The notes below the pieces were generated by a model that made no database searches, was not told the DNA's origin, and saw only the letters and a list, made by a program, of their open reading frames with translations. The position numbers were made by a program, and so were the translations under genes. This document shows, in pieces, positions 21,854 to 45,075 of a DNA stretch of 64,000 nt (positions within the stretch are counted from its first letter, which is position 1; each line of letters opens with the position of its first letter). Origin of the DNA: Cyanodermella asteris (taxonomy: Eukaryota; Ascomycota; Lecanoromycetes; Ostropales; Stictidaceae); the NCBI GenBank assembly GCA_900618795.1, contig UYJD01000006.1:1589256-1653255 (forward strand). The letters are read 5' to 3'.

Positions 21854-23534
21854 ATGAGGCTCATTCGTGCAAGGACGCTGACGCTCGAGGACTTTTCGTT
21901 GCGAAAAATCCCGCCGTATGCTATCCTCAGCCATACGTGGGACGAGGGCGAGGTCACCTCTACCCGAGATGCTGTCCTCGAGCGGTACCAAGAAGAAGGG
22001 CTATCGAAAGATCGAGATGACGTGCAAGCTCGCTCTCCAGCACGATCTGGAGTACTGTTGGGTCGATACCTGCTGCATCGACAAGACGAGCAGTGCGGAG
22101 CTGACCGAGTCCATCAACTCCATGTTCCGCTGGTATCGGGATGCGGAAAGATGCTTTGTCTGGCTTGCCGACGTCTGGATTAAGCATGATTGGCATCCCG
22201 AGGACTTTCAGGATGGTCTCGCGTCTAGCAGATGGGTCAGACGGGGATGGACTCTCCAAGAGCTCCTAGCCCCCAAAGCAGTTGATTTCTACGATGCGGG
22301 TTGGCGTCATCGTGGGACAAAGTTAGAGAGAGGCAAACTGATTTCAGATGTCACGGGGATTCCATGGACTGATTTGTGTCACCCAAGATTGGTCCAGAAG
22401 AATTCTGTGGCCGCAAGGATGTCATGGGCGGCGCAACGTGAGACGACGAGGCCGGAAGACATGGCATACTGTTTGCTCGGTTTATTCGACGTGAACATGC
22501 CTTTGATCTATGGTGAAGGAGACGGGGCGTTTCGGCGCCTTCAAGACGAAATCATTAAGCGCAGCAACGACCTGACCATATTTTCCTGGAAAAATGAGCA
22601 CGAGTTCTCGGAAGATACCAAGTTCTGCAATATTTTTGCGTCTTCGCCGCTCGCGTTTCGCTCGAGCCATGATATTGCGTACTTCGACACCGAGTCGGCT
22701 ATTTTCTGGACCTCGAACAGAGGACTCGTCATTTCTGGCGGCTTCGAGGGACCACCCATAAGGCAGGTTCAGGTGACGGATGCCACAGGTCGAGTAAGCT
22801 CATGCTATATGCTAATATTAGGCCACATGGTGCGCTCGTCTAGTCACAGCACGCCGGGAGGAATCATCCTGCGTAAATTCAGTCCAGCTTTGTTTTGCCG
22901 TGATGGAAGATATCCGCTCATGGGCTCCGGGAACAAAGCATTGAGCTTCCGGAAATTCGAATCCTACATCAACGTTCCTGACTATTGCATTGCCACTGAT
23001 CTCATGCAGCTGACGGGATTGCAACCATCCTCGAACCTGTGGCTTCTGCATCGATATCGTGGCATTCACATTCAGAAGAGGGACGAGTACGAGCTGGGCT
23101 TGGTAGCACCAGACCAATTATGGGACATCAATGACAGGATTATCCTGAAGCATACTCTCTATTCGCAGGTTCCTGGGGCGGCACCTGTAGTGCTAATGGA
23201 ATTTTACGTCCCTTTCGCAGACAATGAATTCCATCTCAGCACCGTCTGTCATTTCCGAGACGCGAAGACCGTGCGAACCATCTTGTTCGAGGCCGGGGAT
23301 CCCATTCTCAAACAGATCAAGGGGCTTTTCGAGAAATATGGTCACGAAAACAAGCTGCTGCTGGTAGACCAGCTGCAACGAAAGGTCCCGAACTTCCATA
23401 CGCTCAGTAGCCGACTGAAAATAATCAGACACAGGCTCACCTATTCTATCGTAGCAGGCTTCAAGACCGAACTATTCCCCAAGGCGCATTTCTTAGGGTG
23501 TGGTAACGTGCAGATTCCTTTCTTGATACCATAA
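21854..23534 (+). pseudogene. HET-domain protein, disrupted by a 1-base frameshift
   Basis: The ATG at 21854 opens MRLIRARTLTLEDF...YAILSHTW, the classical HET-domain start. About 35 codons in, the matching frame moves by one base between about 21953 and 21966. After that the HET domain continues to the stop at 23534 with GTKKKGY, YCWVDTCCIDKTSSAEL, SINSMFRWYRDAERCFVWL, RRGWTLQELLAP, MAYCLLGLFDVNMPLIYGEG and FRRLQDEIIKRSNDLTIFSW. Without the shift it would be about 559 residues. No intron can bridge it, because the gap is only a few bases. HET proteins trigger cell death when incompatible fungal individuals fuse. A start at ATG 21918 in the downstream frame would yield a protein missing the first HET strand. 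It is either a real pseudogene or a sequencing indel. Confidence 0.85.
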
Positions 23535-30767: not shown

Positions 30768-31972
30768 ATGGCCCTGTCTGTTGCATCTGATGTCGAGTTC
30801 TTAGACCAGCTCGAGGATCACGTCCCTGATCAACTAGTTTTGCGGAATGCTGTCTATGTGCAGCAAAGTCGGGGTCGTGCGGACATGGAAGAGGAGCTCC
30901 GTTGCATGAACTGTGGCAAGAGTAAGTTGTTTCGGCATCCAAGAAGTATTACAGAAAGGCTTACCCTTTGGCAGAGAAGAAACAAACCAGGAAACAAGAT
31001 GGTTCGATGTGCCACTCACACCCTGGAAAGTGGGTCTGGAAGCTGCAGGTACGTTTGGAATGGCTTTCTCTTGAAGTAAACAGACTAACGCATCCCTAGC
31101 GATGGTCCTGCTGCAATAGCAAGGACAAAGACAAGGAGACCACCAGATTCTGCCACCACCAACCCCAACGCTCATGGCCAGTGCGTAACGATGCATTCCT
31201 GCAGCGCCACTATCAATACTTTGGTACCCCTGCGATTGGACTCAGTGATCCGAAACTCTTTGCAGTCGCGATTGGCTGCGAAATGAGAGTGAACCGCTAC
31301 AACGATCAAGAGCTACTTCGTCTCACCTTGGTAAACGTCTTGAGCGGAGACGTTCTCATTGACAGTCTCGTGGCTCCGGAAACGCAGATCAAAGATTATC
31401 TGACATGGGTCACTGGAATCACCGCAGCCAACATCAAGGACGCTCGCGCCAGTGGAGATTGCATTTTGGATCGCAGCCAAGCTCGGAGGGCGATTTGGCA
31501 ATTTGTCGGTCCGAAAACCATTGTGATCGGCCATGGCGCGAAAGGGGACTTTGCGGCACTGCGTTGGTTTCATCCGCACAATGTCATTGACACGCTACTT
31601 CTCGCCAAGGAGAAGAATCAAAAGACTGAAGAAGAAATCGACCAGGAAGTTGCCAAAGTGGGAGAGGAAATGAGGCTGTGTGCAGCCATTGCCGAGGCTG
31701 CGAGGTTGAAAGCGGCAGATGGGTGGGTGACTGTGACAAGGAAGCGCGAGCCGAAACCGAAGCCCTACCAGGCCACGTCTTCCGACAGACGGATGGTGTC
31801 GAAGCGCTTCGAGGGTTTCAGTTTGAAAGCGTTGACGAAGGAGCTCCTCGGTCGTGACATTCAGATGCCGGGCCAGCCGCATGACAGCGTTGAGGATGCG
31901 TTGGTGACCATGGATATTGCCTTCGCTTTGTGCCAGTTGCCTTTAGCTGTGCCAAAGGACATTTTTTCATAG
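30768..31972 (+). CDS. REX-A: CHORD-like zinc module + Rex4-type exonuclease, first Asp lost
   Basis: Exons 30768-30921, 30975-31048 and 31100-31972 join in frame (phase 1, then phase 0) to 366 residues. The N-terminal module has CMNCGK, then CHSHPG, then RWSCC eight residues later, then a CHH. The order and HPG...WSCC signature resemble CHORD zinc domains. The C-terminal domain is a DEDDh exonuclease of the Rex4/ISG20 group: Exo I region IGCEM, Exo II GHGAKGDFAALRWFHP, Exo III PHDSVEDAL. In Exo I the metal-binding Asp (normally DCEM) is Gly (codon GGC), so catalysis is probably lost or weak. A charged insert of about 70 residues containing WVTVTRKR separates Exo II and Exo III. First gene of the tandem array. 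Confidence 0.87.
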
Positions 31973-32073
31973 ATATGAAATGCCTCTACAGGCTGGAACG
32001 ATGCCAGAGATGTCATAAACGGATAAAGCTCATCATTTGTGCAGTGGCAGGCTTTCAAAATGAGGAGTGATCA

Positions 32074-32339
32074 GTGCAAAAGCGCCAACAAACGTTTCGG
32101 ACTATCCTATTTCACTGTTGCCAATACAGTGGTAGCCTCTTATATCAAAGCCAAGTTCTAGAATGCGAAGTCGACAGTTTTTTCTACGCCCACGAAGAGC
32201 TGTTGGACGGTACCAGTTCTGCCAACACGTCATTCAACCGCCTAGCGAACCACACGATAGTAACGAGCATGCTTTGACGACACTAGATATTGCGGTCGCG
32301 CTGATCAAAATTCCGGATAATACCCAACTTCCGGAATGA
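32074..32339 (+). pseudogene. Decayed, internally deleted fifth copy of the exonuclease gene
   Basis: Translation in one frame gives FHCCQYSGS (compare FRCCGRYSRS of REX-B) from 32110, then LECEV (compare IDCEM), then HEELLDG (compare TKELLGR of REX-A). A frame change follows. From 32226 the frame HVIQPPSEPHDSNEHALTTL continues as DIAVALIKIP to a stop at 32337-32339, matching DIQMPGQPHDSVEDALVTM and DIAFALCQLP at the end of REX-A. The Exo II part is missing and the Exo III Asp has become His. The order matches the intact genes, so this is a shrunken relic, not chance. Confidence 0.8.
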
Positions 32340-33396
32340 TGACCTTCCGCCTTTCATGAAAGAACAAAGGGTGTTTGCGGACTGCTGCTTATCACGTTTG
32401 GGTGGGTTATTGAGAGGTTTGATGCTGTAAATGACTGGGGAAACTTCCAGGAACATCACAAACCGATTATGCTCCGTTTGGGCAAACTTGACCGTTTTGT
32501 AAATCAATTGTCTATGATGAACTCTTCATGTCCCACTAGATGTCTCCCTGCTGTTAAACCTGCCGGTCGTGAATACCTTGGAAAATGACTTTTCCTAGAT
32601 GGGAAACAGTCCTCCCTAGCTAGTTTGACGGCAAAGTTCGCGCTTGAAGGGACAAGGTACTCACCCAATCGTACAAATATCAGAAGGTGCATCTGCAAAT
32701 CAAATGGAATTGCTCAATACTAATAACTAGTATATGTTCAAAGGTATTCTGCAAGGCTTGATGTCTTGTCATTGTAACGGCGCCGCCTCGTTACGTACGC
32801 GCCCAGCAGTGTTATTGGGACTGTTGCATTGACCGGAAGAACAAAATTAAGAGATTTGACGAGAATAATCTTCTCAATACCAACTTGGGAGAGCCGTCAC
32901 CGGGTATTTAGGTGACTGGCAGGTTGGGAAAGGAGCTTAGATATGAGACCGCCATTGTGAGTCGGCAGGTCACGCAATCAGCGGGACTGCTTCACTGCCT
33001 CTTTGGCATGGGGAGAGGACTTCTAACTGGTTACACGAAACCAGTAGAGACCGAAATGGTGACTGCCGGCAGCTGTGAGCGATACAGGTCCACTGGTCAA
33101 TGGACAAGCTCCGTTGCTGTGAGTTGGCATCAGATTGACTGCTGAGCGAGCACCCATTCATGCTGCTCACAATGACGGAGTTTGAGGCTAGGAACAAGGA
33201 GTGACCTACTGTCTTCAGTGCTGCCTAGCCATGTGTCTGTCAGCATACCCTTTGATAGGGCTATGAAAGTAGCCTTGATGCCCCGAGAGGTCTGGATTCG
33301 TCGATCTCTATCACTCCCTAGTATTCGTTGCTCACTACTGTTCCCCAGCTCAAGCGTTTTCGGGAAGAAGACACTTTCCACGTCAGATCTAACATC
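32340..33396. other. Intergenic within the array
   Basis: No supported gene; presumed REX-B promoter region. Confidence 0.5.
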
Positions 33397-34786
33397 ATGT
33401 TCGAGATCGATGACCCAGAAGTCTCGTTGGCCGACATCCTTGACCACGTCCAATCCAAGCACGAACTTGATAAGAATGGATACACGACCGAAGTACTTGA
33501 CGTAGGGGAGCTTGAATGTTTCCTCAAGTGTAAGCGGTGTCATATTAGTAAGTAACTTGGGCGCATTGAAACACCTGCTCCTGTTCTATTACTGATCTTG
33601 ACAGAAATGCACAAAAGCACTAGCAACAAACTGCATGACCTTCGGAACCGAAACAACCCAAACGCCAAAGTCCTTGACGGTGGATGTAACTTCCACAGTG
33701 AGAAGTTCGATCCCAAAAGAAAGGTACTTCGTATCTCACGCTCCTATCCTCCTTGCTAACGAGATCGTGACACTAACCTGAATCTAGGTCTTTCGTTGCT
33801 GTGGTCGCTACAGCAGGTCTGCAACATGCCAAAGAAGCAGCGAACATGTATTTCCAATCCCAAACATTAGGAAACTGATTGACGAGCATGCATACTTTCC
33901 GACTCCAACGATTGAAACGGACACTCCCAAATACGCCGCTGTGATCATAGATTGCGAAATGGGGGTCAACACTCACGGCGAGCCAGAGCTTATCGAAGTC
34001 GGTATGATCTGTGCACTTACACGCAAGACTCTGATTCATAAATTAGTCAAGCCTGCTGTCCCGATGCGCCACTACCAGACGCAGATTACCCGAATAACAG
34101 CTGCGGATATCGAAAAAGCTGTCGCTGATGGAAGCTGTATCCTTGGAGGAAGAGATGCGGCGCGCCACGAGATTTTGAAATTCGTCGGACCAGATACCAT
34201 CGCTATCGGCCACAGTCTCAAGAGCGATCTGAAAGCATTGAGGTGGGTCCATCCACATGTTTTGGACACTAAAATTCTTGCTCACAAGAAGAATCGCCTG
34301 AGTGATGGAGAAATTGCGGAGGCCGTGCGCAGAATCGAGGCGCTGATGAACGACGAAGATCCAGAGCCAGGATTTACGACCATCAAATCGAAGACGCAGG
34401 GCCGAGCGGAAAGGAATAAGGTGACTGATCGAGAAGTGCGCAAAGAGGCGCGCAAGCAAAGGTTCGGGAAATTCTCTCTAAAGTTTCTGACCAAGTTCCT
34501 TCTGAACAAGGAGATCCAGAAAGACGGAGTGGAACACAGTAGTCTGGAGGATTGCAAGGCGACACTTGGCATTGCAGCTGCAATGTTCAAGCTTCCTTCT
34601 GCAGCAGCTGGAGAGGATGAAGAAGAGCCAGACTGGATCGCTGAAAATTACCGCCGTGACGCGCTGCGGCGGCAGCAGGTGGTACAGGAGCCGACCAGTC
34701 AGGATCCTTCGGTTGCTGCTTGGACTGCTTGGCTAGCTATAGGAGATGGCGCAAAGAATCATGACCTCCTCTGGGAAGTCCTCTGA
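33397..34786 (+). CDS. REX-B: zinc module + Rex4-type exonuclease, all catalytic residues kept
   Basis: Exons 33397-33547, 33605-33723 and 33788-34786 (phase 1, then phase 0, as in REX-A) give 422 residues. Zinc module: CKRC, then CNFHSE, then FRCC eight residues later, then further Cys and His. The HPG of REX-A is HSE here. Exonuclease motifs are complete: IIDCEMG (Exo I), GHSLKSDLKALRWVHP (Exo II) and EHSSLEDC (Exo III His and Asp). It should therefore be an active 3'-5' exonuclease; RNA is the usual substrate of Rex4/ISG20 relatives. The insert between Exo II and III is Lys/Arg/Glu-rich with FTTIKSKTQGR. An acidic C-terminal tail is present (EDEEEPDW). The ATG at 33397 was chosen because the frame upstream has no other ATG. 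Confidence 0.87.
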
Positions 34787-34930
34787 AGATGCTTGGACAA
34801 GCATGAAGAATGAACACAATAACGCAATTTGGAAAGGCAGAAGTTGTGACGCAAAAATTCGTGGTTTACTCTGGGAAGGTATGTGAAGATACTTGGACAA
34901 GCATAACGATTGGAAATAACCTTGTGATTG
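34769..34930 (+). repeat. Direct repeat, 100-base period, over the 3' end of REX-B
   Basis: A diverged block of about 60 bases starting CTCTGGGAAG at 34769 recurs at 34869. Both copies share tgaagat(g/a)cttggacaagcat and the following a-rich segment. The first copy includes the REX-B stop codon, the second lies in the 3' flank. Confidence 0.85.
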
Positions 34931-36093
34931 TGTCTAGAAGTACTTTGGCTATGTTGTAGATCTCTCAATCACAGTGCAGTGACAGAAGTGAGATGCGATT
35001 ATGGAGATTGTCACAAGCTGCTGCCTGACGTGCTGTGCAGCATAGAGCTCATGTGTTTTGCACAAACCAGCTGAGTTTGATTGACCCAGTGACAACAGGA
35101 CAACGTCGATTGTCAAAACAGATCGATGCTTGGTTTGAGCAATTGAAGAGCGGTTTTGCTTCCTCCATCGCCTATTTAAGAGTGGTAGCAATTGCGAGGT
35201 TGAAGCTTTGCCCCGCAACTATGCGGTGTTGCCAAAGTATTTGAAAATGTGCAAGGAAGCTTCTCCGACTCAGAAGCCGAACAACCCATGCAACGTCGAA
35301 CAAGAAGATCATGAGCTTGAAGCGTGATCCTCGTGGCTGCTTGTATTTGGACTGAAGGTTGACTCAAGGCTGTCATGTCAACAGGGCATGATGGTATTCA
35401 AGCCGCGCCGTGATGTCATAATCATGACATCCAGTCTCATCAACAAGTGGTCAATTAGGGTTGCCAGTCCATGCCGCATTCAGGTTATTCCAGAGATTGC
35501 AATCCTTTTCGCTGATGCGAAGCATGGTGGCTGGAAACAAATCGGCATCTGTTGCTTGGTAGGGGCGCGCCAAACAACATAATGTAAATATGAACATTGA
35601 CTCCAGTCGAAAAACGCCGCTGCTGAGTCCATTGTTTTCACTTTCGGTGAATTGCCGTATTGGCCCAATCCGAACAGGATTCGTCACTGTTCTCGGGCCG
35701 CGTACCCGTGGCTAAAGCCTGCGGCATTATACGCAACAGCAACACCCAGATTGGCTAAACAGCCCACTCAATAAGAAACCTGCCTGGGCACTGACAGGGG
35801 TTGTTCCCAGCCACCTTTGAGCCTTCACTCAATTGTTTACTCACAATGGTTCTTGTCGTTGTGCGTTGCCGGCAAGCCGGCAGCGAGCGGTGCGAATGCA
35901 GCGGCTATAGATAGCCTCAAATCTTGCCCGTATGCTGCACCGTCAACCATCTGCATCTCTTGCCTATCTGTGGCATGCTCAAGTAACGCATCACCCTTGA
36001 ACCTTCGAAGCTTCCTTCTTCTCTGCCTCCTTGCCTTCTTCCATAGAAGACTGCCCAACGCATTCGCTTTCGGAAAGTTGACAAACGAGCAAC
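34931..36093. other. Intergenic within the array
   Basis: No supported gene. The end is pyrimidine-rich (cttccttcttctctgcctcc) and is the likely REX-C leader. Confidence 0.5.
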
Positions 36094-37580
36094 ATGGTCG
36101 CCAAAAAGCTTCAGGTGACTCCGGTGATCCCGCTGAACTTCCCTGCTAGGATGAAGAAGCAATCAGTCACCCCAGGATCTGAGCCTATCACGTCTGGATC
36201 GGCCATTCCTATTGCCTCGACACAGGTGATGTCAGGCATTCCGCCGAGCTCTGCAGATTTAGAGTCTGCCGCAGACAACTCGGCGCAAACTTCAACTCAT
36301 ATCGCCGCAGAAGAGCTTCCTGTCATCCTGGCGACAGTACAGGTCCAAGATCGCTCTACCCTCGTCGAGCAATTAACGGCACAGGTCCTTCACGGAAAGG
36401 CCCTGCAGAAGGCAAACTTTGTAGAAGACACTCGATATGCAGGAGCTGATGAAAACATTGAGGTGCCGGATATGTTTCAAGAGTAAGTCACAGATCCCAA
36501 ACACGAGTTCAGGATTTTGACATCCGACAGCAAAACACCAAACCAAATCGCAGAGTCAGCCAAACTCAAGAACTAGGGGAAATGCTTGCAGGCATCACAG
36601 TGGGCGGTATTCTTGCCAAGAAGGGGTAAGCTGCTAGTGTCCTAGCTTTTCAAACTATCGAATGACTTGGACTAACGTATTTATAGAAGTGGTCTTGCTG
36701 CAGCGGCGACGGCGACTGGCCGGGTTGTATCCAACAAGCCGACCATACGTGGCCCTTGTTAAGCCAAGATCACATCAAACGCCACCAATACCACCATACA
36801 CCGCCATTGAACGATGAGAGCGATCCCCGAGCGGTAATTTCGCTCGATTGTAAGATGGGAATTTCGACTACCGGAGAATCTGTCTTACTTCGTATAAGTG
36901 CCTTTGATGCAGCGACGCGAGAGGTTTTGATCTCCAACATTGTCCGACCCGAAGTCAGGGTGTCGCGTTATGTCACACACATAACAGGCGTTTACCCAGG
37001 CACGATCAAGGAAGCCGTGCACAATAACACGCATATCCAGGGGACGTCCGGAGCTCGCAACTTAATCTGGAAGTTCGTTGGTCCTGACACTGTGATCGTG
37101 GGCCACGACATCAAGAACGACTTGGACGTTCTGAAAATCATCCATCCACATGTTGTCGATACCTTGTTCCTCGCTCGCGAGAAGGATCGTTTTACCGATG
37201 AAGAGGTGGAGCGTTTCCTTGACCAGGACAGAAGGAGGAGAGAAGCAGAGGCCCAGGCCGAAATTGGAGAAGGCTTCACGCTGGTCGACCCAGGGCGGAA
37301 GCGGAAGCGGAGTCAAGCTGCTGCTGAACACGCTCGGACCTTGAACGACAGATTGATGCTCCGAAACCGACCGCGCTTTATAGGAAAGTCTTTGAAGGCC
37401 TTGGCAGACCAATTGCTTGGTCGGGAAATTCAGGTGGAGGGCAAGCCTCATTGCAGCACTGAAGACTGTATTGCCACGGCGGACGTGGCATTTGCTCTGA
37501 GCAAGCTGCCGACGGTGACTCACAGGTTGTTGTATAATGATGTGGCTTGGGAGGCTGCCCATTGTGCGGAATATGATTAA
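36094..37580 (+). pseudogene. REX-C: zinc module + exonuclease-like domain, frameshifted, Glu lost
   Basis: Exon 1 (36094-36482) encodes a Ser/Thr/Pro-rich N-terminus up to about 36425. The conserved frame then shifts by one base: TLDMQELMK and LRCRICFK appear in the next frame, matching LDDNQLMELLRCVNCG of REX-D. Exons 36531-36625 and 36687-37580 continue in frame with CRHHSG and, eight residues on, KWSCC. The exonuclease domain reads LDCKMG (Exo I; normal DCEM, so Glu is Lys), GHDIKNDLDVLKIIHP and PHCSTEDC. The insert contains FTLVDPGRKRKR, a possible nuclear signal. A shorter product of 344 residues could start at ATG 36437 and would keep both domains, so complete loss is not certain, but catalysis is unlikely. 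Confidence 0.82.
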
Positions 37581-39197
37581 CAGCTTGTGTAGTGTTTAGT
37601 GATGTCAGGCATGGCTAAATGCACTCCAGTATCGCAATTGCGCCGGCCTTCGAGTCCGGGAGCAGCGTGCGACGCGGTAACGTCTGAGGCCATCTCATGC
37701 AATGAGGTGCTAAGTCAGTTGCAGTAGACGGCGAACGCATGAATCAATCAACATCAATTGGAACAAAAAGAACATTCTCTCTGCAGTGTTATCGATGCGC
37801 CAAGAAGCACGATGTTCCAGTTACTTATCAGAAGTAGGATCAGGTTCTGCTTCAACAGGCTGTCAAACTTCGCTTCACAGATAAAAGCGCAAGCATACAC
37901 AAGACTGACACAACAACAAGTACAACGCGCAAAGACTAACCTGGGTCTATCGTAGCTCATGGAGGGGGCCTTTGAGAAACATACTTCGTTGCCACCAAAG
38001 CTCGACTGAGCGAAATCTTTGACAAGACTTGTGCGACGCCGCCAATGTCACGCGAGCTGGGCGATCTGTACGGCAGTTCGTTGACTTTCCGAGGCTAGCA
38101 CTACTTACTACTAACACTGTAGCAAAGTCTCGTTTTCAATTCACACGTTTGCAGATGTTCGTCCTCCCAAACACCTGAACTTGACATGTCTGTCCAGTTC
38201 CTCCAATAATAATGATGTCACGACGAGTCATAATTCGTACACGCAGACAGAAACGCATGAAGCCTTTCTTCAACTCTGGCCGGCCCCAAAACTGTCGTTT
38301 CGCGAGCAAACACAATTCCAGACTAAAACAAAAGTAAGTGTCACTCAGCCAGTGCCGATTCCGCTGGAGAAGAAGTTCCCTGCATTCTACCCAGCTCGCC
38401 ATGCCTAACGGCCGGAGGAAGCCACTCTTTACGAATTTTTCCATGCTCACGGTCGCCCTGGCGAGGGACTTGGCACCAATGGTGCATATAGCAACGGAGG
38501 CGCAGTTTTATGTACACTATGGCTCATTGAGCTCAAAGTAAGCACAAAATCAGGTCGGTGAACCCACTGGTATTGATGGCTCCGCCGGTCGGAAAGGAGT
38601 CACGATCGTACCCGCGACATCTCAAAACCAGGAGCAATTCCTGCATCCCTTGCCCCTTACAATTGCACAGGCTTCATGCAGACCACTTTTTGTTGATCAG
38701 CTGGCAGTATACAAGTAAATATAAATATGAGATACCCTTGGTTGGGCGGGCCGCCCCCGTGAAGTTGTTCATTGGAAGACACTCGGTGAAGCGCCATATT
38801 GTAGCAAACAGGAGCCGTGACTGATTGGTTAGCCCATCCATTCCGGCAAAAAGGAATTCAGGCAACATTCAAGGTCCGAATGACGAAAATCAATGAGTTG
38901 CCTGCGCAACAGCAGCGTTCTGTTTGTGCTGTCAAAGGTATTGACAGCTTCGCTCAGGTCCTTCACCTCCAAGCACTTGTTGTTGCCAAAGAGTATCGTG
39001 ATCATGTGCGGCGCCGCCAGAGGAAGATATTGTTGCGTCGATAAGAAGCACTCCCAGTCTCTTCTCACTCCGCTGCATCATCAGCTCTTTGCATCTCTGT
39101 GCTGCTGCACGTCTCAGTCCTGTATCACCTTCGTTGATCTTAAGACTCGATCACTCGGCAACACTATCCCTTTCAATCGCCATCGAATAGAGACACC
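37581..39197. other. Intergenic within the array
   Basis: No supported gene. A short frame at about 38331-38408 (VTQPVPIPLEKKFPAFYPAR) weakly resembles the N-terminus of REX-C (VTPVIPLNFPAR) and might be another relic. The last 150 bases are pyrimidine-rich, the probable REX-D leader. Confidence 0.45.
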
Positions 39198-40799
39198 ATG
39201 GTCAACAAGAACGAACCCATAGTTCCGGCGCTCCCGGACTCCGCCTTGCTTTTCAAGAAGTGGAAGCCCGAAAGACCATCCCAACCGCGGAAGCCGGCAA
39301 CATGGGCAAAAACTCTGGCTTACTGCCCGGATCCAATTCCAGGTCCAGTGATTAGACCATTCATGCATTTCTCGCCAGCTCCGGTCATTTCGACTGGGAG
39401 CACATTCTCAATCGTTCAAAACTTGGCGAAAGAGGTGCTGGATGCAGGGAGTTTGGATAAGGGGAAGATTGTGACGTCTCAACTGGATGATAATCAATTG
39501 ATGGAACTGCTCAGATGCGTCAACTGCGGCCAAAAATTGTCACATATCCCTGAAAAGGACCTCGCAATGCCTGAGGTGTGGCGGGAGGACCATGAAATGG
39601 AAGGCAAATGTTTCTTCCATGACGGAACATGGTCCGCGATTGAACGAGTAAGCTGCTTCTCTGATTATCTCCGAGTCATTGCAAAGAACCCCAGACTAAC
39701 TTGATTTTAGGAGTGGTCCTGTTGCGAAGGCGCAGGCGACTCATCTGGTTGCTGCCCGTTTCCTCGGCACCGGATCCCGTCCGTGGATTCAGAACAGGGA
39801 CAGCGTCCCCAGTATTATCGAACTCCGAACGTGGCAGCCGGTGTTATCCCACAAGTTATCGTCGTTGTGGATTGTGAGATGGGCACCGCTTTATCTGGGG
39901 ACAGAGTGCTCCTTAGCGTGAGTATGGCCGACGTAGAGACAGGCCAAGTGCTGCTCGATAGCTTGGTGGACCCCAAAGTTGAGGTGCTGGACTACATCAC
40001 CAGGATCACCGATATCAGGTACAGCGATATTCAACGCGCCTCAATCCGGAGCCAATGCCTCCAAGGTGTTGCAGCTGCTCGGGAGGCCATCTGGTCGTAT
40101 ATCGGGCCAGAAACAATTGTCGTTGGCCAGGCCATCAAGAATGACCTGGATGTCCTGAAGTGGATTCACCCCAACATAGTGGACACTCAGGTGATGGCCC
40201 GCCGACGGAACTGGTTGAGCGAGCCTGAGATCGAGTCTGGATTCCAGAAACACAAGCAGATGGACGCTGAGATTTTGAAAGTACACGCGCGTCTGCAGGC
40301 TGAACAAGAAGCAAAATTGAAGCGTCAACAAGACGAGGATGGGTCAGACTGGACCAGAGTAGGCCCGAAAATGAAACGCATTCCGGCTCCAGAGCTCCAC
40401 GTTAATTCGAAACTTGAAAGAGGCTTGCTTGAAACTTCGGCGCGCTTCGAAAGGGTATCGCTCAAAGCGCTGGCAAAACAGCTTCTCAACAGGGACATCC
40501 AAATGGATGGCCACCCACATTCAAGCAAAGAAGACGTTCTCGCCACAAGGGACATTGCGATTGAACTTTGCAAGTTTCCCGCAAAAGTCTACGGCTTATC
40601 GGATGATGACTGGTTAGAACGCCATTTGGAGCAGTACGGCGCCATAGTCGGACCAGCAGCAAACACACTAGGGGAGAGTACCAAGGTAGCGGCCAACCCG
40701 GACCCGAACTCATCTTCGAGCAACAACACTCTTATAGTTGTTCCAACCAGCTCCGGCCCGGGCTGTAACGACACAGCAACAGAACTGAAAGAAGATTGA
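39198..40799 (+). CDS. REX-D: zinc module + Rex4-type exonuclease, all catalytic residues kept
   Basis: Exons 39198-39647 and 39711-40799 (phase 0) give 512 residues, the longest of the family. A Pro-rich N-terminus of about 100 residues precedes the zinc module: CVNCGQ, CFFHDG, then EWSCC eight residues later and a GCC. The intron after the first CxxC in the other copies is absent here; the one before WSCC is kept. Exonuclease motifs: VVDCEMG, GQAIKNDLDVLKWIHP (the usual GH is GQ; the catalytic Asp is present) and PHSSKEDV. The insert between Exo II and III is a long Gln/Glu/Lys helix with DWTRVGPKMKR. A Ser/Asn-rich tail of about 50 residues follows. It is predicted to be an active 3'-5' exonuclease. 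Confidence 0.88.
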
Positions 40800-43427: not shown

Positions 43428-45075
43428 TTTGATACTAGCGGCCAGATGAACGATTCTAAAATCTGCTCGGCTGAAAGACTGAGAGCTGGGATGAGATCCA
43501 GCACAAGATTGCGGATTGTGAGAGGTCTTTATACCTGCTTCGAGAGTCGAGCAAACCCGCATCGGTCCCGAAGCCTCTCACATGCTCTCAACGGCTGTGC
43601 GGAGAAGTTGTGACGGCGTTCGTTCTTGTTGCCCGAAAGGGTGTTTTTGAAGCCACACATAAGCAGCTGTCAGAGCTAGATGACCATGGCCAGAGCTGTC
43701 AAGTTTTCTGTCCACTTAATCCCGCCAACTATGAAGACTAGAGGGAAAAGGGATCTTGGAAGTGTCCGAGCGGCAGGCTCGGTGTAAGGTCCATTGCAAA
43801 CGGGGCGCTGTCAGAAGCATTGGTTTAGACACGTGTATGATGACAGGCAACGAACGCAGTGGAACTCGTATGCTCGTGAAAGACGATGTCGGAAACTGTG
43901 CGCATGAATGAACAAGAGCCCATACAGCTCCAGAATTTTCCAGCTGTTGCCGAGGGTCAATCGGATTCGCCCTGTCAGTTGTGAAGGGAGTTGACAGCTA
44001 TGTGCTGTTTGATGTCCTAGCGCTACATGACGAAAGGGAGGGCAACGAGACTCTCCGTCTCGTCCAAGTCCACGTTCAAAGAAGCAACTAGCACTCTTTA
44101 TCAGATCGCGGGTTCGCACCACGAGTTTGTGAGATGTGTGGCAAGCCTTGCTAAGCATGCGGCATGACCTGGAAATGTCAGCAACCCCACTGTCATCAAG
44201 ACCGACCTTTCTGCGAGTCTCGAGTAGACTATCCAAAACAACATCGAGTTGCGTGATCTGGCTCCTGGCCAGGTGATTGCTTCGAACACATTGTGGCAGG
44301 ACACTGAAGGCTATCAAAGATGAGGATTGTGTACTACGCCTCCATCGAAGCGAAGACGGACGACAATTCAAGAGATGCCTCGGACTTTGCCGAAGATCTG
44401 CACACCAACACTTGCCCATTATTATGCTCCAAGTTGGTTTTGATCGCTTCGGTGGCGACATCGTCAACGTCACGATCGTGTCACNNNNNNNNNNNNNNNN
44501 NNNNNNNNNTCGTGGACCTCTTCCAGTGTAGTTTATGGCTGCTTTTGCAGGTTAGTGGCGCAATACGAGACCGGAGGGTTCTTCGGTCGGTAGTGAGATC
44601 AGAAGCTTATCCAGGCCGGGACTGAGTAGTCTGATGGCTATTCAGTCGGTATGTCGAAGGACATGTCTTCGATAGGGACTCGAATATCAGTGATTACTAG
44701 CGTACGCATTGAAACGAAAAGCTCGTGAGCCACTGAGCTGAACGGCTGCTCGGATAGCTGAGCCCAAGTATCAGCCATCGTCAACTGGGTAACAGTAGCC
44801 GCTCAAGTCTTGCTGAGATCTGTGCGACGTGGTACGGTGTGGACTGAAAGCGTCGAGAACAGAGGGGAGGTCGGGTCGAGGGCGTTCCGGCAACGCTTTT
44901 AGGCGTGTTTATTCAACTATAACGTCTTGAGCAGCACTCAGCTCTATTGTCTATCGCAGTCGTGCTCTCATCGAACATACCTCTGACCCGAGCTTCAAAC
45001 TGCCACCGGCGTCTCCACTCCCATTGTTTGTAGCGGCCGATTGTTGACTGAGTCGATCTGTTGGTCGTACCTGCG
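43428..45075. other. Intergenic, contains the assembly gap
   Basis: No supported gene. A 220-codon minus-strand frame at 43811-44473 starts with GTG and has a Ser/Arg/Cys/His-rich composition typical of antisense noise. Sequence around the gap may be incomplete. Confidence 0.5.
44485..44509. other. Assembly gap (25 N)
   Basis: Twenty-five unknown bases. The true gap length may differ. Confidence 0.99.

Follow-up and report, generated by a model that had tools for sequence, protein, structure and literature searches.

The DNA analyzed here is a stretch of 64,000 nucleotides from Cyanodermella asteris (the window; contig C5, 1589256–1653255), and searches beyond it covered the whole genome (28.5 Mb, 25 contigs). 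The window holds four plus-strand genes, A to D, all within 30768–40799, and each joins a CHORD-like zinc module to a DEDDh-type exonuclease. The original prediction, a model's reading of this sequence, had described four co-directional genes with a shared Cys/His motif, and the motif is indeed present in all four. The array is genuine: a set of KIX-less Rex3-like exonucleases that has expanded locally and is partly degenerate. What is new is the local duplication and the damaged active sites of A and C only, the domain combination being already known from Rex3/REXO1. We built the gene models from the DNA letters via GT-AG introns, and those of A, B and D gave clean proteins of the lengths listed:

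30768..31972, plus strand: gene A, exons 30768–30921, 30975–31048 and 31100–31972; 366 residues; Rex3-like, with GCEM as its Exo I motif
33397..34786, plus strand: gene B, exons 33397–33547, 33605–33723 and 33788–34786; 422 residues; five catalytic residues intact
36094..37580, plus strand: gene C, 36094–36482 (with a frame problem inside), 36531–36625 and 36687–37580; an alternative, shorter model starts from the ATG at 36437
39198..40799, plus strand: gene D, exons 39198–39647 and 39711–40799; 512 residues; five catalytic residues intact; without the phase-1 intron

Two intron positions recur among these genes. A phase-0 intron lies directly before the [W/F]xCC block in all four, every one with a CTRAY site at −15, and a phase-1 intron lies just past C-x2-C in three of the four, with a CTRAY site in one of those three. 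Gene E, a fifth and better conserved relative on contig C4, has both introns at the same places by inspection, the first acceptor being weak. Because intron positions and phases agree among the paralogues, we regard the exon joins of A to D as supported. In gene C, at about 36384–36443 on the plus strand, the D-like N-terminal stretch and the C-x2-C exon lie in different frames; this reflects either a short intron without a consensus donor, a disrupted frame or a start at 36437, and a frame change in 36384..36443 without a consensus intron would possibly be a mark of decay. Gene C was left out of one alignment (A2).

In all four genes, C-x2-C is followed by C-x2-H-x-[G/E], exactly eight residues, [W/F]-[S/R]-C-C and then the DEDDh-type exonuclease. 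The variants are HPG-x8-WSCC in A, HSE-x8-FRCC in B, HSG-x8-WSCC in C and HDG-x8-WSCC in D. Two further ligands after the CC pair, in the form C-x5-H, complete a set of eight Cys/His residues, and the modules lie as follows:

30903..31171, plus strand: module of gene A, two introns inside; eighth ligand R for H in one alignment
33529..33847, plus strand: module of gene B, eight of eight ligands; two introns inside
36464..36746, plus strand: module of gene C, eight of eight ligands; two introns inside
39516..39770, plus strand: module of gene D, eight of eight ligands; one intron inside

Conservation was judged mainly from alignment A5 (96 rows), which holds 79 of 123 family relatives, chosen by hand with short, chimeric and some other sequences excluded, and 17 of 120 listed Rex3 proteins (1355 found). 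Here all eight ligands are present in B, C, D and E and seven of eight in A, which has R at the eighth, in a neighborhood that aligns ambiguously, and which fails a strict regular expression for the pattern. Each ligand is conserved in 74–77 of the 79 relatives and in 17 of 17 Rex3 rows; the relatives were collected by similarity, so their high conservation is partly an effect of selection. Applied to the 95 of 123 relatives with at least 330 residues, the strict eight-ligand expression matched 83 and missed 12. Between H and CC there are 12 residues in B to E (by the expression; in A by eye), 10 in 69 of the 83 matching relatives and 21–27 in 120 of 120 Rex3 proteins among the matches listed; the eight-residue spacing is no CHORD hallmark. 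Since the intron positions are shared and the ligands conserved across relatives, the module is not a product of chance. An artefact of the chosen exon joins is ruled out as well by the ligand counts in the relatives and the agreement of the paralogues' introns.

The modules of A to E (five rows) matched a profile of the Rex3 module with 95.6% probability (E 1.2e-8), and those of the wider family did so with 98.7% (E 2e-16), the latter match taking in the helix before the module. The original prediction was right to join a CHORD-like module to an RNA-type DEDDh exonuclease. Against solved chains, a module profile of 13 rows, four of them from the window, found the BTK motif of BMX (E 0.0018), CHORD containing protein-1 (2yrt; E 0.002) and RAR1 (E 0.068). 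A predicted model of P0057, which is not a window gene, was good when made from A5 (96 sequences): in residues 41–120, five of eight blocks of ten have a predicted local distance difference test score (pLDDT) above 90, and the linker, 51–80, has 54–81. A model made from A3 (seven sequences) had a pLDDT of 49.2 and was dropped. The best 50 rows from Foldseek and VIA-align were exonuclease-fold or DNA polymerase chains; that CHORD chains were missing from them is no evidence against CHORD, since a single domain takes up the whole list.

The exonuclease regions of A to D were bounded by tblastn with P0009, and two catalytic positions within them are altered:

31199..31918, plus strand: DEDDh exonuclease region of gene A
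33935..34561, plus strand: DEDDh exonuclease region of gene B
36828..37487, plus strand: DEDDh exonuclease region of gene C
39861..40556, plus strand: DEDDh exonuclease region of gene D
31274..31276, plus strand: Exo I Asp to Gly in gene A (GCEM); D in 79 of 79 relatives and 17 of 17 Rex3 rows
36852..36854, plus strand: Exo I Glu to Lys in gene C (DCKM); E in 79 of 79 relatives and 17 of 17 Rex3 rows

The catalytic D, E, D, H and D are present in 96 of 96 rows (79 relatives and 17 Rex3), and all 95 relatives with 330 residues or more have DCEM as the Exo I motif. All five residues are found in B, D, E and the Rex3 gene on contig C13, and four of five in A and C. Of the Exo I, II and III motifs originally reported for the array, the full set thus stands intact in B and D, whereas Exo I is changed in A and C. 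As far as sequence can tell, activity is most likely for B and D. For A and C, each with a changed Exo I residue, impairment as nucleases is most likely but not certain, because some DEDDh enzymes retain activity despite an unusual centre (PMC12129344). The Exo I losses, the C-x5-H ligands and the frame problem of gene C had gone unreported in the original prediction, as had the remnant and the loss of conserved positions described below.

With gene D alone as the query we found nine relatives, and a profile of 11 sequences found 250 related proteins at E ≤ 0.001, about 8,000 candidates being scored in each search. KIX-less Rex3-like exonucleases are thus a large group in filamentous ascomycetes; among the 120 matches listed, the named relatives include Trichoderma, Colletotrichum, Fusarium, Cordyceps, Chaetomium, Talaromyces, Aspergillus and Pyrenophora, and in nine the source gives the name RNA exonuclease 3 or "3 like". 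Relatives such as those of Fusarium and Colletotrichum belong to the same family by profile and have the same ligands and catalytic residues, but the copies in the window show greater divergence, and in A as in C one Exo I residue invariant in the 79 has been lost. The genome's own Rex3 gene (C13:90840) is a 674-residue open frame with the module and DCEMGY. It has 1355 homologues at E ≤ 0.001, of which 16 of the 120 among the matches listed are named RNA exonuclease 3; Pfam listed no KIX for it, and no search aimed at KIX was made.

The canonical architecture of Rex3/REXO1 is KIX plus CHORD plus DEDDh, the CHORD of Rex3 having been recognized via structure comparison (PMC12129344, 2025). The same paper gives CHORD plus DEDDh without KIX for Prage (fly), Q9N5W0 (worm) and nonpathogenic Cryptococcus, and states that the architecture had been noted earlier for a CHORD protein of Rhizopogon vesiculosus. 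Prage is the subject of PMC4889664. Yeast Rex3 is described as acting in RNase MRP RNA processing (PMC12129344) and, on genetic evidence, in RTR1 mRNA decay (PMC4793211). With this architecture in print, both as Rex3/REXO1 and in KIX-less forms (PMC12129344), and with 250 related proteins at the threshold given, the fusion is neither new nor lineage-specific, contrary to the original prediction; a lineage-specific fusion is ruled out by that count, and the failure of the claim spares follow-up. Among open-licence papers, judged by title and opening of the abstract, we found none describing a Rex3-like tandem expansion in Ascomycota and none dedicated to the ascomycete KIX-less Rex3-like group.

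Like Rex3/REXO1/GOR (compared with fungal Rex3 only), the array proteins have one CHORD-type module immediately ahead of a C-terminal DEDDh domain, with the same eight ligands and the same preceding helix. Unlike Rex3, the models of A, B and E have 42–45 residues before the module, which leaves no room for KIX, barring further 5′ exons; C and D have about 100 residues there, Pro-rich in D, in which no Pfam domain was found. The insert between Exo II and Exo III, a spacing that could be parsed in 74 of the 79 relatives, is also longer, at 72–116 residues in A to E versus 40–48 in 17 of 17 Rex3 rows, and the family lacks the Tyr or Phe after DCEMG. Because KIX is not present in the models, we file the array as KIX-less Rex3-like and not as canonical Rex3. 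By published description it resembles Prage, Q9N5W0 and some Cryptococcus proteins, which are likewise CHORD plus DEDDh without KIX and stand beside a canonical Rex3 in some organisms; A, B and E consist of CHORD plus DEDDh only and occur alongside the C13 Rex3 in the same genome. With RAR1/CHORDC1 the array shares the C-x2-H-x-G...W-S-C-C block, but those proteins have tandem CHORDs and no nuclease.

A tree of the exonuclease region only (53 rows, including 32 of the 123 relatives and 10 of the 120 listed Rex3 proteins) places A to D in one clade (100/96), with E branching next (100/97) and C and D as sisters (100/90). The expansion in place that had been predicted holds up, A to D being one clade and E its sister. 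A further copy has left a remnant:

32163..32324, plus strand: remnant (Exo III part) of a further copy; E 1.8e-5 to gene A, 61% over 28 residues in the window search; E 0.006 in the whole-genome search

A 73-base direct repeat at window positions 34747–34919 (spacing 100, 74% identical) spans the last part of gene B and the DNA that follows, a hint of an earlier local duplication. A repeat scan found no long repeats able to explain the duplications, and the one telomere repeat pattern searched was not found in the genome (0/1), leaving a subtelomeric position unjudged.

Conservation in at least 90% of the 79 relatives holds for 76 positions, of which E retains 70, D 60, A and B 57 each and C 54, and every one of the relatives, left out in turn, retains at least 87%. 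Gene E therefore behaves as a conserved gene, and the array has evolved fast. The long exons of A to D (290–362 codons) are all open, and in a neutral simulation such an exon was still open in 3–5% of runs at 0.1 substitutions/site. The exonuclease regions of the array share at most 44% identity. Given the low survival of open exons in the simulation, constraint probably acted on the reading frames throughout most of their past.

Several observations weigh against the Rex3-like assignment. The original prediction had looked to the Pfam profiles for a check: RNase_T (PF00929) was over the cut-off in A (E 1e-8) and B (E 8.5e-9), but it was not listed for C or D even at E 10, and a whole-genome RNase_T search recovered A alone of the four. 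CHORD (PF04968) was below the cut-off throughout, with A at 11.6 bits versus 24.6 (E 0.47) and none listed for B, C and D; in A5 it appeared at E ≤ 1 in 16 of 96 rows, the best at E 0.011 and also below the cut-off. The BTK motif, a related zinc finger, matches the module at least as well as CHORD does. The Tyr found after DCEMG in 17 of 17 Rex3 rows and in the C13 gene occurs in 0 of 79 relatives, which have T (62), V (11), N (3) or others (3) at this position; A to E have V, V, I, T and Q, respectively. In the tree, the deep branch parting Rex3, Rex1 and Rex4 from the Rex3-like group is weak (62/59) and joins long branches, and there is no support for a common clade with Rex3. Pfam alone neither proves nor excludes CHORD.

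Taking these points together with the evidence for it, we consider it very probable that the array represents four diverged copies and one remnant of a KIX-less Rex3-like 3′–5′ exoribonuclease, with B and D active and A and C impaired. The sequences themselves show which family this is, how the zinc ligands are arranged, which catalytic residues survive, and that the copies share one origin and have diverged fast; the proposed mechanism borrows from better known proteins. By analogy with CHORD proteins and Rex3, the N-terminal single CHORD-type domain probably holds two zinc ions and would serve as a protein-docking platform beside the catalytic domain. The C-terminal DEDDh domain of B and D, with two metal ions, would trim RNA 3′ ends nucleotide by nucleotide, as expected from the DEDDh domain and Rex3. 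A and C, each without one Exo I metal ligand, could be decaying copies or non-catalytic regulators. The likely job of the set would be 3′ trimming or turnover of cellular RNAs, alongside the genome's own Rex3. One genome offers a natural series of a conserved E, intact and fast-evolving B and D, and active-site-changed A and C, in which the contribution of the CHORD module could be studied separately from catalysis.

The odds of the other readings are not mutually exclusive. It is conceivable, if unlikely, that A and C are retained pseudo-exonucleases, acting as decoys or partners that regulate the active B, D and E in a locally evolved RNA-decay switch; if so, they would retain a CHORD docking module and a folded RNA-binding domain without catalysis. 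Slightly less likely again is that the whole array is decaying, as redundant duplicates of gene E that are becoming pseudogenes with no function of their own, a reading that accepts the family assignment and therefore overlaps in its odds with the main one. The loss of an Exo I residue in A and in C, the disturbed frame of gene C, the remnant at 32163–32324 and the many conserved positions lost in all four copies are what such decay would leave. However, four long exons are open where neutral runs at 0.1 substitutions/site leave few so, at identities of 44% or less, and B and D retain five of five catalytic residues and eight of eight ligands.

The original prediction also raised a defence role, in which a new lineage-specific CHORD-exonuclease fusion might degrade the RNA of viruses or transposons. 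Defence genes often expand fast and locally, and the array is both tandem and fast-diverging, with A to D at 54–60 of the 76 conserved positions versus at least 87% in each relative. Relaxed constraint accounts equally well for the divergence, and the fusion is widespread and in print (PMC12129344). The flanks offered one hint, a gene of non-self recognition type about 7 kb upstream of the array:

21882–23531 of the window: HET-domain (heterokaryon incompatibility) gene, Pfam HET E 3.6e-9

Searched against Pfam, eight of 10 flanking open frames had matches (GH18, HET, MFS, SDR, alpha/beta hydrolase, ankyrin below the cut-off, bZIP and BRCT), and no known antiviral or RNA interference component was among these (PADLOC was not searched). 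A defence role thus found almost no support, and we consider it very improbable. On the minus strand at 43814–44551 lies an open frame with unknown residues from a run of undetermined bases, which marks an assembly gap or a masked stretch.

Rex4/ISG20 proteins are DEDDh domains not known to have an upstream CHORD-type module, and such a module is found in all four window genes. They share the DEDDh exonuclease fold and motifs with the array, and the original prediction had assigned the array to their type. As a whole protein, however, the fusion is closer to Rex3 than to Rex4/ISG20: no CHORD-type module was seen in the open frames of the Rex4 candidate (C6) or the Rex1 candidate (C8), upstream exons lying outside the frames examined, and the C13 Rex3 has one. 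The solved exonucleases closest by sequence are ISG20L2 (7yw5, E 1.5e-25), then SDN1 and ISG20; as no Rex3/REXO1 chain was among the 10 PDB matches, this ranking cannot decide kinship. That the array belongs to the Rex4/ISG20 group and gained an unrelated Cys/His module by chance is accordingly hard to credit, for the ISG20L2 match that speaks for it decides nothing, nor does the tree, and the module matches that of Rex3 along its whole length, preceding helix included, while the C6 candidate frame shows no such module.

Apart from the array and its Rex3 kin, the genome holds other genes with partial likeness to them. An open frame at 492–2084 of C4:101500–104800 (531 residues) has a DEDDh domain with C-x2-C, C-x2-H, C-x2-C (in place of CC) and C...H upstream, and may be a second kind of zinc-exonuclease fusion, unlike both Rex3 and the array. 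Two related DEDDh-type genes (C11:1449k and C15:1750k) have Gly/Arg-rich N termini and one C-x2-C before the domain; DGEF or DAEF replaces DCEM in them, and they pair in the tree at 100/99. A RAR1/CHORDC1-type protein with two CHORD domains is encoded at C5:1027513–1028123, about 590 kb from the array on the same contig.

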